Assembly (NCBI GenBank): GCA_016188625.1
Contig: JACPHL010000035.1
Span: 1-11,656, forward strand
Direction: 5' to 3'
Length of the DNA: 11,656 nt
Source of the DNA: Candidatus Rokuibacteriota bacterium
Lineage (GTDB): Bacteria > Methylomirabilota > Methylomirabilia > Rokubacteriales > JACPHL01
Under the pieces are notes generated by a model. That model ran no database searches, was not told the DNA's origin, and was given only the letters and a program-made list of their open reading frames with translations. The position numbers and the translations under genes are program-made. Shown piece by piece: positions 5,069 through 10,097 of this stretch. Each line of letters begins with the position of its first letter. Position 1 is the first letter of the stretch.

Positions 5069-5890
5069 GTGAGCTCCGGCCGGGAGGCGCTCGTGCCCGT
5101 CGCGCGGCTACCACGAAGAGGCCAGCGGCCTGAAGAAGTGATCCCGAGCTCGAACGGCCGAGCCATCAAGGGGTCTCGCCCGAGGCCCGGATCCCGGGGG
5201 GCCGGCTCACGGACGGATCCCCCCCGAAGCCGCCTGTTATCTGAACGCGCCTACCTCGAGCTCCGCCGACGGATCATCTTTCAAGATTTCAAAGGCGGGC
5301 AGGCCCTGGACGAGATGTCGGCGGCCCGCGCCCTCAGGCTGGGCCGCACGCCCGTTCGAGAGGCGATCCAGATGCTGGCGAGGGACGGGCTGGTCAGGGT
5401 GTACGCCCGACGGGGAACCTTCGTGTCCGAGATGGGCCTGGAGGTCCTCCGCCAGGTGTGCGAGACCCGGGCGCCGATCGAGGAGCATGTCGCCCGGCGC
5501 GCCGCGCTGCGGGCCGAGGCCGCCGACATCGAAAAGATGCGCGGAGCCCTCGCGGGGGTTAACGCGCTGATCGAGCAGAGGCTCTTCCGGAATCTGGTCG
5601 AGGCCGACGAGCGATTTCACCTGGCGCTGGCGGAGGCCGCGAAGAATCCCCTGCTGCAGGAGCTGGTCGTCAAGCTCCACGGCCTGGCCATCCGATTCTG
5701 GTACCCCACGCTGACGCAGCGGTCCCTGGACGACATCCGCGAGGAGATGGCGCTGCACCAGCACGTCCTGGCGGCCGTTGAGGATCACGATCCGGATAGG
5801 GCGGCCCGGGCGATGCTCACGCTCGTGGGTGGTTTCTTTCACAGGGTCACCGAGGTCCTGAAGGGGACCCCGCCGGGCGCCACCGCGTGA
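5069..5890 (+). CDS. GntR-family transcriptional regulator, FadR subfamily (FCD domain)
   Basis: A DNA-binding regulator of 273 residues from GTG 5069. The winged helix-turn-helix runs from about residue 55 (SERAYLELRRRII) through LRLGRTPVREAIQMLARDGLVRVYARRGTFV, the standard GntR recognition-helix and wing signature. An all-helical FCD ligand-binding domain follows. 'EADERFHLALAEAAKNPLL' supplies the Asp and first His (D-x3-H), 'LHQHVLAAV' the next His and 'GFFHRV' the last, so a metal site for a carboxylate ligand looks complete. Such proteins usually sense organic acids and repress nearby catabolic genes, consistent with control of the decarboxylase genes starting 34 bases after its stop. 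The first ~50 residues are low-complexity (Arg/Pro/Gly/Ser) and unlike the family. GTG 5138 (residue 24) is the only later standard start before the HTH, so the true start is uncertain. Confidence 0.92.
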   Translation: MSSGREALVPVARLPRRGQRPEEVIPSSNGRAIKGSRPRPGSRGAGSRTDPPRSRLLSERAYLELRRRIIFQDFKGGQALDEMSAARALRLGRTPVREAIQMLARDGLVRVYARRGTFVSEMGLEVLRQVCETRAPIEEHVARRAALRAEAADIEKMRGALAGVNALIEQRLFRNLVEADERFHLALAEAAKNPLLQELVVKLHGLAIRFWYPTLTQRSLDDIREEMALHQHVLAAVEDHDPDRAARAMLTLVGGFFHRVTEVLKGTPPGATA

Positions 5891-5924: not shown

Positions 5925-7262
5925 ATGGACCTTCGCGCGTTTCTGACGGACCTCGAGAAGGCCGGGGAACTGATCCGCATCCGGAGGCCGGTAGATCCCC
6001 GGCACATCTCCGCCCTGACGGCCCAGTCCAAGAAGGGGGTCTACTTCGAGAAGATCCGCGGGTACGACATGCCGGTGGTGGCGGGGCTCGTCGGCACCAT
6101 GGACCGATTGGCGGTGGGGATGCACGCGCCCAAGGGGGCCATCGGGCGGCGCGTCTCCGAGGCCGTGCAGAAGCCGATCCCCCCCGAGGTGGTGAAGGAG
6201 GGGCCGTGCCAGGACGTGGTCCTCACCGGGACGGAGGTGGACCTCACCCGGCTTCCCCTGCCGCTCCAGGGCGAGATCGACGGAGGGCCCTACATCTCGG
6301 CGGGCATGACGATCGCCAAGGACCCCGAGTACGGCCGAAACGCCGGCTTCTACCGGTTCATGTACAACGACCCGACCCACCTCGGGATCGGGCTGACGGG
6401 CCCGTCGGACCTCCGGCTCTTCTACCAGCGCGCCCTCTCGGCCAAACGACCCGTCCCGATGGCCGTGGCGATCGGAACCCATCCCTCGGACATGGTCGCG
6501 GTGACCTACAAGGCCCCCGTGGGGTACGACGAGCTCGCCATCGCGGGAGGGTTGTGGGGCGAGCCGCTGGAACTGGTCCGGTGCAAGACCATCGACGCCG
6601 AGGCCCCGGCCAACGCCGAGATCGTGCTGGAGTGCGAGATCCTCCCCACCGGGTTCACCGTGGACGAGGGGCGGTTCGGCGAGTTCACCCGCTTCGTGGG
6701 AGAGCTGGTCCAGATGCCGCTGGTGGAAGTCAAGGCGATCACCCACCGGCGGGACGCCATCTTCCAGGTCATCCACATGCCCTGGGAGAACATCGTCCTC
6801 GACGTTCCGGTCTATGAGGCGATCGCCTGGAACATCCTGACGACCGCCGGCATCGAGGCCACGGCCATCAACGTCACCACGGGCGGGTGCGGGCAGTTTC
6901 ACGTGGTGGCGGCCATCAAGAAGCGCGGCGGGGAGGGAAAGAACGCGGTGCTGGCGCTCCTCTCGGCGGCCTCCTTCAAGTACGCGGTGGTGGTGGACGA
7001 GGACATCGATATCTTCGACCCCGACCAGGTCGAGTGGGCGATCTTCTCCCGGGTCCAGGCCGACCGCGACGTGATCATCGTCCCCGGGGCGCGGGCCAAA
7101 CCGCTGGACCCCTCGCTCCCTCCCGCCAAACCCCCCGCCCTCCCGCTGGGCGCCAAGCTGGGGATAGACGCCACCATCCCGGAATACGCCTACAAGGAGC
7201 GTTACACCACCATCACCTACCCGTTCATCAACGACGTGAAGCTGGAGGACTACCTCGACTGA
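5925..7262 (+). CDS. UbiD-family prFMN-dependent decarboxylase, first paralogue
   Basis: A 445-residue UbiD-family enzyme, cytosolic, expected to use prenylated FMN for reversible decarboxylation of an aromatic or alpha,beta-unsaturated acid. By motif comparison with fungal Fdc1 (R173-E277-E282), the catalytic triad is R144 (in NAGFYRF), E248 and E253 (in DEGRFGEFTRF), all intact. 'GGPYISAGMTIAKDP' and 'KLGIDAT' are further family signatures. N139 matches the cofactor-metal Asn, but the His expected about 18 residues after R144 is not evident (LTGPSDLR). A proline-rich stretch at 398-407 (LPPAKPPALP) precedes the conserved AKLGIDAT strand and is longer than in the second paralogue. A very strong ribosome site (AGGAGGGGGAGG) precedes ATG 5925, 34 bases after the regulator gene. 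The substrate is not determinable; ubiquinone-pathway UbiD is unlikely given two paralogues and a local regulator. Confidence 0.93.
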   Translation: MDLRAFLTDLEKAGELIRIRRPVDPRHISALTAQSKKGVYFEKIRGYDMPVVAGLVGTMDRLAVGMHAPKGAIGRRVSEAVQKPIPPEVVKEGPCQDVVLTGTEVDLTRLPLPLQGEIDGGPYISAGMTIAKDPEYGRNAGFYRFMYNDPTHLGIGLTGPSDLRLFYQRALSAKRPVPMAVAIGTHPSDMVAVTYKAPVGYDELAIAGGLWGEPLELVRCKTIDAEAPANAEIVLECEILPTGFTVDEGRFGEFTRFVGELVQMPLVEVKAITHRRDAIFQVIHMPWENIVLDVPVYEAIAWNILTTAGIEATAINVTTGGCGQFHVVAAIKKRGGEGKNAVLALLSAASFKYAVVVDEDIDIFDPDQVEWAIFSRVQADRDVIIVPGARAKPLDPSLPPAKPPALPLGAKLGIDATIPEYAYKERYTTITYPFINDVKLEDYLD

Positions 7263-7273
7263 AAGGGGAAGCG

Positions 7274-7498
7274 ATGCCACCGCCGAGCGAGATCGATCGG
7301 CTCGCGCAGCGTATCCTGGCCCTGGCCCGCCGGGGCCCGATCTTCTACTACGACATCCTCCGAGAGCTCCGGGACGAGGACTATCGCGCGATCATGCTCG
7401 CCTTCGGCCAGATCCGGCAGCAACAGCTCTTCGGGCGCGACGACAAGGGCTGTTACGTCCTGGCCGAGACCGGGAGGGAGGAGGGAGCCAAGGCATGA
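7274..7498 (+). CDS. Small unrecognised protein (74 aa) between two UbiD genes, winged-helix-like
   Basis: A 74-residue frame from ATG 7274, with AAGGGG a few bases upstream, to TGA 7496-7498. Its ATGA overlap with the second UbiD start couples their translation, and it lies 11 bases after the first UbiD stop. I do not recognise the family with certainty. The sequence reads as helix (EIDRLAQRILALARR), then GPIFYYDILRELRDE, a third helix (DYRAIMLAFGQIRQQ), then a beta-hairpin-like LFGRDDKGCYVLAE. This is the order of a small winged-helix domain. It has one cysteine and no CxxC, so it is not the zinc-binding VdcD/BsdD small subunit of hydroxyarylic acid decarboxylases, though its place in the operon is analogous. 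It could be a structural subunit, a cofactor-loading factor or a regulator. No function is assigned. Confidence 0.82.
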   Translation: MPPPSEIDRLAQRILALARRGPIFYYDILRELRDEDYRAIMLAFGQIRQQQLFGRDDKGCYVLAETGREEGAKA

Positions 7499-8865
7499 GG
7501 CAGGATCTCCGCTCGTTCGTGGAGGAGTACGGAAAGAGGTATCCCGGGGAGCTCGTCCGCGTCACCGAACCGGTCGATCTCCGGTTCGATCTCCAGGCGA
7601 TCGCGCTGGAGCTGGAGCGCCGCCGCCGGTTCCCCATTCTCCTGTTCGAGAATGTGGTGGGGCACGACATCCCGGTGATCTGCAACGTCATGGCCAGCCG
7701 GCGCGCCTTCGCCGCCGCCCTCGGGGTCGAGGAGGCGCAGATGCATTCCGAGTACTCCCGCCGGCTCACCGAGTACATCAAGCCGGTAGTGGTCCAGGAC
7801 CCGCCCTTCCGCCACACGATCATGAAAGGGGATCGGGTGGACCTGTCGAGACTGCCCATCCCGACCTATTTCCCGGGTGACGGCGGCCCCTATATCACGG
7901 CGGGCATGATCGTGGCCAAACACCCCGACACGGGGGGCGAGACCGAGGGCTACCACCGCTGCCAGGTCAAGGGGCGGGACAGGATCGGGATCAGCCTGCA
8001 CTCGCGCCGGCGGATGTTCGAATACCAGCGGCTCGCCGAGGCCCGCGGGAGGAACCTGGAGGCCGCCATCGTCCTCGGCCTGCACCCGCTCATCGGGATG
8101 GGCTCGCTGGCCTACCCGCCGCCTGAGATCTCCAAGTTCCAGGTGGTCGGCGGGCTGTTCCGGGAGCCGCTGCAGATCGCCCCCTGCGAGACCATCGACC
8201 TGATGGTCCCGGCGTGGGGAGAGATCGTCATCGAGGGCGAGATCCTGGCCGGGGTCAGGGAGAAGGAGGGGCCCTTCGGCGAGTTCACCGGCTACTTCTC
8301 CCGTCGGAGCACCGAGCACGTGCTCATGGTCAGGGCCATCTGCATGCGCGAGCGCCCGTGGTACCAGTCCATCAACTCCGGGCGGGCGCCGGATCACATC
8401 CTGCCGCTCGGCGTCCTCCGAGAGGTGGAGATCCGGAACGCCGTCAGCCGAGTGATCCCCAACGTCAAGGCCGTCCACGTTCCGACCTCGGGGTGCGCGG
8501 CCTTCACGGCCTTCGTCTCCATCAAGCAGACCCGCCCGGGCGAGGCCAAGCATGCCATCCCCATCGTCTTCGGGGTGGATCACTACCTGAAGCTCGTGGT
8601 GATCGTGGACGACGACGTGGACGTCTTCGACGAGTCCGAGGTCCTCTGGGCCCTGGCCACTCGCGTGCAGGCCGACCGCGACCTCGTCGTCATCTCGGGC
8701 AGTCTCGGAGCGATCCTCGACCCGTCGGCTACCGAGCAGGGGCTGACCGCGAAGATCGGCATCGACGCCGCCAGGCCATTCGGCCAATCCTTCCCCGAGA
8801 AGCTCCTCATGAGCCCTGAGAAGCTGGTATGGGCCCGCGAGGTCGTGGACCGGATAGGCGGGTGA
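7495..8865 (+). CDS. UbiD-family prFMN-dependent decarboxylase, second paralogue
   Basis: A 456-residue UbiD-family protein, clearly homologous to the 5925-7262 product but divergent along its length, so not a recent duplicate. The proposed triad is R155 (GYHRCQV), E258 and E263 (KEGPFGEFTGYF, the textbook UbiD motif). 'GGPYITAGMIVAKHP', 'VPTSGCAAFTAFVSIKQT' and 'GLTAKIGIDAA' are further signatures. At the position of the cofactor-metal Asn of Fdc1 (five residues before the Arg) it has T150, while a His (H169) is present near the second ligand position, the reverse of the first paralogue. A purine-rich ribosome site (GGGAGGGAGGAGGGAG) precedes ATG 7495, inside the 3' end of the small gene. 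It probably acts in the same pathway as the first UbiD, perhaps in one complex; this is inference from coupling. Confidence 0.93.
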   Translation: MRQDLRSFVEEYGKRYPGELVRVTEPVDLRFDLQAIALELERRRRFPILLFENVVGHDIPVICNVMASRRAFAAALGVEEAQMHSEYSRRLTEYIKPVVVQDPPFRHTIMKGDRVDLSRLPIPTYFPGDGGPYITAGMIVAKHPDTGGETEGYHRCQVKGRDRIGISLHSRRRMFEYQRLAEARGRNLEAAIVLGLHPLIGMGSLAYPPPEISKFQVVGGLFREPLQIAPCETIDLMVPAWGEIVIEGEILAGVREKEGPFGEFTGYFSRRSTEHVLMVRAICMRERPWYQSINSGRAPDHILPLGVLREVEIRNAVSRVIPNVKAVHVPTSGCAAFTAFVSIKQTRPGEAKHAIPIVFGVDHYLKLVVIVDDDVDVFDESEVLWALATRVQADRDLVVISGSLGAILDPSATEQGLTAKIGIDAARPFGQSFPEKLLMSPEKLVWAREVVDRIGG

Positions 8866-8991: not shown

Positions 8992-9645
8992 ATGCCTACG
9001 CGTCTCGTCGTCGGAATCTCGGGGTCCAGCGGGGCCCTTTACGGCATCCGCCTGCTCCGGGTCCTGGCGCGCCGGCCCGAGATCGAGACCCACCTCGTCC
9101 TGACCAACCCGGCCAAGCGGACGATCCTGCACGAGACCGAGTTCACGATCCCGGAGGTCGAGGCCCTGGCCACCTGCGTCTACGACATCCGCGACATCGG
9201 CGCCGCCATCGCCTCGGGGTCGTTCAAGACCGTCGGGATGGTCGTGGCCCCCTGCAGCGTCAAGACGCTGTCGGCCATCGCCAACTGCTACGCGGACAAC
9301 CTCCTGACCCGGGCCGCCGACGTGACCCTCAAGGAGGGGCGCCGACTCGTGATCCTGCTCCGGGAGACCCCCCTGCACCTCGGCCACCTCCGCCTCATGC
9401 GGGCCGTCGCCGAGGCCGGGGGGGTGATCCTCCCGCCCGTGCCGGCCTTCTACCACCACCCCAAGACCATCGAGGACCTGGTGGACCACACGATCGGACG
9501 CGTGCTGGACCGGTTCGGGATCGAGCAGGGCCTGGTTCCTGAATGGCGGGGCTCCCGCCCCCCGGTACCGGCGCGGCGCCATGAAGCCGCCGTCGCAGAT
9601 CGATGCGCTCCGGCAGGTCGGGTGGTGGAGGCCGAGAGGGGCTGA
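8992..9645 (+). CDS. ubiX: UbiX-type flavin prenyltransferase
   Basis: Makes prenylated FMN by joining a dimethylallyl group to reduced FMN, the cofactor the two upstream UbiD enzymes need. All residues known to matter in Pseudomonas UbiX can be placed: S13 in GISGSSGALYG, E48 (HETEF), K114 (TLKEGR), R124-E125 (LLRETPLH), Y154 (FYHHP) and R170 (GRVLDRF). From K114 onward the offset to the Pseudomonas numbering is a constant 15. 'APCSVKTLSAIA' is another family signature. A strong GGGGAGG ribosome site precedes ATG 8992. The conserved protein ends near residue 186. The last ~31 residues (from about 9550) have no counterpart in the family as I know it and are encoded by palindromic DNA, so they look like read-through into former intergenic sequence. 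The gene may also serve other UbiD enzymes in the cell. Confidence 0.95.
   Translation: MPTRLVVGISGSSGALYGIRLLRVLARRPEIETHLVLTNPAKRTILHETEFTIPEVEALATCVYDIRDIGAAIASGSFKTVGMVVAPCSVKTLSAIANCYADNLLTRAADVTLKEGRRLVILLRETPLHLGHLRLMRAVAEAGGVILPPVPAFYHHPKTIEDLVDHTIGRVLDRFGIEQGLVPEWRGSRPPVPARRHEAAVADRCAPAGRVVEAERG
9545..9580. repeat. Cluster of three short dyads inside the ubiX 3' end
   Basis: Three dyads follow one another: GGCGGG/CCCGCC (9545-9550 with 9554-9559), the palindrome CCGGTACCGG (9562-9571), and GGCGC-G-GCGCC (9570-9580). They coincide with the point where conserved UbiX similarity ends, and look like intergenic palindromic DNA absorbed into the reading frame. Confidence 0.5.
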
Positions 9646-9656
9646 GGTGGTGGTCA

Positions 9657-10097
9657 ATGGAACTGCAGGAGAAGATTCGCGAGTATCTTGAGACGCACGA
9701 CGTGCTGACATTGGCCACGCTGGACGAGGGAGGACCCTGGGCCACGCCCCTGTACTACGTGAGCGACGACGCCCTGGATCTCTTCTTCCTCTCCGATCCG
9801 ACCACGCGGCACTGCCAGGCCGTCGCTCGAAACCCGAACGTCTCGGCGGCGATCCACGAGGAATCCGCCGCCTGGACCGACATCAGAGGACTCCAGCTCG
9901 AGGGACGGGTCCACCCCGTCGATGACGAGCAGGCAGCGGAGCGGGTCCTCGCCAGCTACACCGCCAAATTCCCCTTTGCCCTCGCCCTGGCCTCTCTCGA
10001 CGGGCCTCACCGGTTCTACCGTATCCAACCTCGATGGCTCCGTCTGATCGACAACTCCTGCGGCCTCGGCTTCAAGGAGGAGCTCCGGCTGAGCTGA
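9657..10097 (+). CDS. UPF0306/YhbP-like pyridoxamine-5'-phosphate-oxidase-fold protein
   Basis: A 146-residue protein of the FMN-binding split-barrel (PNPOx-like) superfamily. Similarity to E. coli YhbP (UPF0306) is visible in order: an N-terminal helix with 'HDVLTLATLDEGGPWATPLYYV' (first barrel strands), 'FFLSDPTTRHCQAVARNPNVSAAI', 'IRGLQLEGRVHPV' and a C-terminal 'RLIDNSCGLGFKEEL' matching the YhbP ending 'DNTLGFGKK'. Such proteins usually bind FMN or a related flavin; the reaction of UPF0306 members is not established. ATG 9657 is chosen because similarity begins right there and GAGGTGG precedes it. The frame is open upstream but reads low-complexity Gly/Arg. It starts 11 bases after the ubiX stop, so it probably belongs to the prFMN operon. 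The last 26 bases overlap the convergent VOC gene. Confidence 0.87.
   Translation: MELQEKIREYLETHDVLTLATLDEGGPWATPLYYVSDDALDLFFLSDPTTRHCQAVARNPNVSAAIHEESAAWTDIRGLQLEGRVHPVDDEQAAERVLASYTAKFPFALALASLDGPHRFYRIQPRWLRLIDNSCGLGFKEELRLS

Follow-up and report, generated by a model that had tools for sequence, protein, structure and literature searches.

A small winged-helix protein encoded behind a UbiD gene of Rokubacteria is probably a dedicated subunit of one UbiD branch

Introduction

What is a gene of only 74 codons doing between two UbiD genes, 11 nt behind the first and overlapping the second? UbiD enzymes attract interest as tools for fixing carbon dioxide and for aromatic chemistry, and many of them are inactive in a foreign host because helper subunits, still unknown, are missing. 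UbiD small subunits are already known as a kind. VdcD, a zinc ribbon, is a small and tight partner that is needed for the activity of VdcC, and it shares no sequence similarity with the phenylphosphate carboxylase (Ppc) gamma subunit or with LpdD, nor do these two with each other; the role of many further small UbiD accessory proteins is unknown (PMC8379154). LpdD is a prFMNH2-binding chaperone with a dimeric, Pba3/4-like beta-sandwich fold (PMC10865409), and PhdC is a prFMN maturase (PMC13040415).

We analyzed the small gene in the window, by which we mean the whole stretch of 11,656 nucleotides, taken from a draft genome of 2.6 Mb, and followed its relatives through the genomes of its phylum and beyond.

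Results

The small open reading frame is a real, conserved gene. The frame (7274-7498, forward strand) starts with ATG, stops with TGA and encodes 74 amino acids. It is preceded by an 11-nt gap (7263-7273, forward strand) that follows the stop codon of the upstream gene, UbiD1, and contains a Shine-Dalgarno-like AGGGGA stretch, and its own stop codon overlaps the start of the downstream gene, UbiD2, in an ATGA (7495-7498, forward strand). Both junctions were confirmed from the sequence as the original prediction had described them. UbiD1 (5925-7262, forward strand) encodes 445 amino acids and UbiD2 (7495-8865, forward strand) 456, and each matches all three Pfam UbiD domains; in UbiD1, PF20695, PF01977 and PF20696 all scored above cut-off, as did TIGR00148. 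Further downstream on the same strand, Pfam and NCBIfam identify a UbiX flavin prenyltransferase (8992-9645), the source of prFMN, and, 3' of it, a pyridoxamine-oxidase-like split-barrel protein (9651-10097). Upstream of UbiD1, also on the forward strand, they identify a GntR/FCD transcription regulator (5069-5890), which is likely the operon's own regulator.

With the single protein as query, relatives turned up in 12 of the 95 genomes searched from the phylum, on contigs named Candidatus Rokubacteria. When the same 95 genomes were searched with a family profile, 21 strong matches were obtained in 12 genomes, all at E 4e-16 or better, after which the next score dropped to E 0.001. For a pattern scan, profile A1 was too diverse and a narrower profile worked. 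Scanning the genome contigs with the window protein as a single sequence gave no match. Two weak matches were set aside: L002, in the window's own genome, an open frame that lacks support and at whose locus tblastn detected no UbiD, and L013 (genome G001), which has no UbiD beside it and was lost with the profile. Between related small genes, dN/dS was 0.14, 0.06 and 0.28 in three pairs, so these relatives are under purifying selection. This selection, together with the finding that all 21 strong relatives adjoin or are fused to a UbiD gene, makes the frame more than a product of chance.

The protein belongs to no known family that we could detect. No curated Pfam or NCBIfam model matched it, or any of 18 family members, above cut-off, which bears out its earlier description as unrecognised. 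The VdcD model NF041205 matched none of the 18 at E 1 or better; the same model detected its B. subtilis control and found nothing in the window's genome. Sequence matches in the PDB (PUF60, kinases, designed barrels) were due to chance.

The small domain follows one lineage of UbiD enzymes. Fifteen of the 21 strong relatives follow a UbiD gene immediately on its 3' side and six are fused to the C-terminus of a UbiD. The 15 unfused genes begin at or close to the stop codon of the UbiD gene. Of 14 junctions inspected in relatives, 11 have the two genes overlapping by 4 nt (NTGA), whereas the window has the 11-nt gap instead. One of the six fused copies (L133) is broken by a frameshift between the UbiD and the small part; it was counted as fused and carries the tree label SMALL, owing to the frameshift that separates the two parts. 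This UbiD copy (G064:C333) and another at G041:C75 contain a frameshift or an internal stop, for which assembly errors or decaying genes are possible explanations. At three loci behind a UbiD gene (L032, L035 and L135), the NTGA overlap requires a CTG start, while the relatives use ATG, GTG or TTG; the start codon may be non-standard there, or reinitiation may tolerate CTG.

The 12 genomes with small-protein relatives contain 118 UbiD matches, and the domain thus marks one subset of UbiDs and is no general UbiD feature. All 19 UbiD1-like genes in the 95 genomes (at least 46% identity to UbiD1) carry it. The next-best UbiDs, which have no such domain, reach at most 42% identity and 271 bits, against at least 429 bits for the 18 intact UbiD1-like genes. 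In a tree of 85 UbiDs from these 12 genomes, a branch with 100/98 support separated all 21 domain-bearing enzymes from all 64 sampled UbiDs without the domain; with shuffled labels, which ignore relatedness, the same split arose in 0 of 500 trials. The small domain nonetheless follows the enzyme lineage.

The tree also bears on which of the two neighbors in the window is the partner. UbiD2 falls among UbiDs that lack the small protein and the UbiD1-like genes all have it, which makes UbiD1 the proposed partner and the pairing of UbiD genes incidental. A small gene between two UbiD genes was found in the window and in genomes G087 and G088, while most loci consist of a single UbiD gene followed by the small gene. 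The expectation that profile and neighborhood searches would reveal linkage to UbiD pairs was accordingly half right: the linkage to UbiD is conserved, and it is to the upstream UbiD alone. The other flanking genes vary from locus to locus (ABC, MFS and TRAP transporters, a sensor kinase, an AMP-binding enzyme and others), leaving UbiD as the sole constant neighbor. G087 and G088 have 13 and 15 UbiD matches, respectively, an unusually large UbiD set in Rokubacteria.

Outside the phylum the domain occurs as a UbiD tail. Among 388 sampled genomes, two matches came from other phyla, and searches centered there raised these to six. Plasmid-borne UbiDs of Neorhizobium and Paraburkholderia bear the same C-terminal tail, and all eight examples from outside the phylum, the six from other phyla and those on plasmids, are fused to UbiD. 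A tblastn search of plasmids with the free small proteins found none. Free small genes were seen only in Rokubacteria, the survey outside the phylum being a shallow one that covered, for Pseudomonadota, plasmids only. When the sequences from other phyla and plasmids were added to the tree, the domain-bearing UbiDs, free or fused, came together on a single branch (support 99/99; recovered in 98% of bootstrap trees). Within it, two neighboring fused groups stand beside a mainly unfused group, which means that splitting or fusing, in either direction, has occurred at least once.

The predicted fold is a compact winged helix. AlphaFold2, given ten natural sequences, produced a model of three helices followed by a hairpin (pLDDT 85.7, pTM 0.71), in the order H4-19, H25-31, H37-49, E53-55 and E61-63. 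Foldseek placed this model among winged helices (best E 0.004), and the best VIA-align match was the winged helix of archaeal Rpa2 (Z 9.3, 2.1 A over 64 residues); next came the winged helices of RPC34 and cullin, which serve in protein docking. The helix-helix-helix-hairpin order proposed from the sequence was thus recovered in the model. Resemblance to the Rpa2, RPC34 and cullin domains does not by itself show a function. The conserved positions are P22, F25, R38, A43, G45 and R48 and the wing; the family motifs are R..L.AWG.LR in the predicted third helix (residues 37-49; 7382-7420, forward strand) and LGRDxxGRY in the predicted wing hairpin (residues 50-63; 7421-7462, forward strand). Conserved arginines occupy positions 38, 48, 55 and 60, and most members are neutral to acidic overall (net charge near neutral, zero or negative).

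A model of one natural UbiD fusion had a mean pLDDT of 68 and fell below 50 at the junction, and only its separate domains are credible; it does not locate the small domain on the enzyme. Among solved structures, the closest relative of UbiD1 is PDB 6h6v/6h6x (448 amino acids), which aligns over the whole length at E 1e-87. Its chain ends where UbiD1 ends, without a winged-helix tail. We take this structure to be Pelotomaculum HmfF, a furandicarboxylate decarboxylase.

Discussion

The pattern of linkage and fusion is strong evidence that the small gene and one UbiD branch form a functional unit. Proteins that are fused in nature generally act together. We consider it probable, with good though not full confidence, that the small protein is a dedicated subunit of UbiD1, encoded immediately upstream. 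Most likely it is a structural or allosteric subunit that would work much as VdcD does, with a different fold. Two points count against a subunit: the winged-helix fold is also common in DNA-binding proteins, and most UbiDs work without a partner.

By analogy with VdcD and by the rule on fused partners, this winged helix of 60-70 residues, which some relatives carry as the C-terminal domain of the UbiD polypeptide itself, would bind UbiD1 stably, one to one, near the UbiD C-terminus. There it may hold UbiD1 in its active conformation, as VdcD does for VdcC, by positioning active-site loops or by limiting motion of the prFMN domain. Translational coupling, through the 11-nt gap or the NTGA overlap, would ensure that both chains are made in equal amounts, and the UbiX of the same cluster would supply prFMN.

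Like VdcD, the protein has about 70 residues, is encoded with a UbiD enzyme and has no enzymatic domain; VdcD is the tight partner of one UbiD, as we propose here. The two differ in that VdcD has two CXXC motifs, whereas the small protein has at most one cysteine and is modeled as a winged helix. The window protein has one and every other member has one or none (most have none), which makes a four-cysteine zinc ribbon impossible. The original prediction that VdcD-type cysteines are lacking therefore holds for the zinc-ribbon set and needs correcting in one respect, since a single cysteine is present. The phenylphosphate carboxylase gamma subunit also serves a UbiD-type carboxylase as a small accessory protein, and it had no sequence match to the small protein in our NCBIfam scans. 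None of VdcD, LpdD and PhdC is a winged helix, and our text searches of an open literature library returned no paper on a winged-helix UbiD partner and nothing relevant on UbiD in Rokubacteria. Relative to the family libraries and literature searched, the small protein is a new class of UbiD partner. The suggestion of a different class, first made from the sequence, gains support from the fold, the lack of a VdcD match, the exclusive linkage to one clade and the natural fusions.

There are several other possibilities for these observations. The protein could be a helper that loads or matures the prFMN cofactor, like LpdD or PhdC, and no permanent part of the enzyme. Known UbiD helpers are small and diverse (PMC10865409, PMC13040415), a UbiX gene lies in the same cluster, and the resemblance is real as far as it goes: LpdD is a small protein linked to a UbiD decarboxylase and PhdC an accessory protein of a UbiD-UbiX operon. 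However, LpdD is co-transcribed with UbiX and serves unrelated UbiDs, whereas the window protein is tied to one UbiD branch, often by fusion, and tracks neither UbiX nor UbiDs at large. The model of three helices and a beta hairpin is not the LpdD-type beta-sandwich, and PhdC has an unrelated, HpaC-like flavin reductase fold; the small protein is far below both folds in size and matches neither family. A fixed one-to-one fusion with the enzyme in at least 14 cases is also easier to reconcile with a subunit than with a helper that acts transiently, and we regard a loading or maturation role as unlikely.

Lower still we place an adaptor role, in which the small protein would link UbiD1 to a further protein such as UbiD2 in a mixed decarboxylase complex. 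The position between two UbiD genes in the window, G087 and G088 would fit such a role, as would the protein-docking winged helices that head the structural matches. Most loci, though, have one adjacent UbiD and no constant second gene, and UbiD2 itself comes from the branch without the small partner.

The fold also raises the question of a DNA- or RNA-binding regulator of the operon, and weak, sub-threshold matches to repressor-type families point the same way. Against this, the protein is fused to the enzyme in many lineages, most members have a net charge close to zero or below it, basic residues are not a consistent feature of the third helix, flanking genes and regulators vary between loci and the window already has its GntR regulator. 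Across the 18 members, no Pfam or NCBIfam model of DNA-binding winged-helix regulators (MarR, PadR, BlaI and similar) matched above cut-off. DNA binding therefore looks unlikely, and a role as operon regulator seems to us slightly more doubtful than docking. A more exotic version, in which the winged helix still binds nucleic acid and these UbiDs, whether with a free subunit or fused, double as autoregulators that detect substrate by way of the prFMN enzyme, is very unlikely. No profile match to a DNA-binding family without UbiD linkage turned up, and the frame was conserved in related clusters, so neither finding that would have undone the prediction was made. Finally, that the ORF is no gene is virtually excluded: chance frames are common in high-G+C DNA and many are listed in the window, but the frame, its start position and purifying selection are kept across genera, fused copies occur also in genomes less rich in G+C, and this conservation already refutes the idea.

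If the small protein is a subunit of UbiD1, then a small and easily overlooked partner defines one UbiD branch and comes with natural fused versions. The fused form, or co-expression of the small gene, would offer a route to active enzyme, and the natural fused and free forms would provide a way to test how a small subunit controls UbiD catalysis. As for the reaction, a heteroaromatic carboxylate is a reasonable guess for the substrate of UbiD1-type enzymes.

On the rhizobial and Paraburkholderia plasmids, the fused UbiD (L144, 4020-5564; L145, 3954-5558) lies beside a molybdenum hydroxylase of the xanthine-dehydrogenase type and an enoyl-CoA hydratase, neighbors that suggest heteroaromatic breakdown. 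In the window, the split-barrel flavoprotein behind UbiX could have a prFMN-handling role comparable to that of the maturase PhdC, although it is from a different family. Two ABC transporter permease genes lie upstream (347-2178; the Pfam check covered the first) and are separated from the UbiD cluster by genes on the opposite strand.
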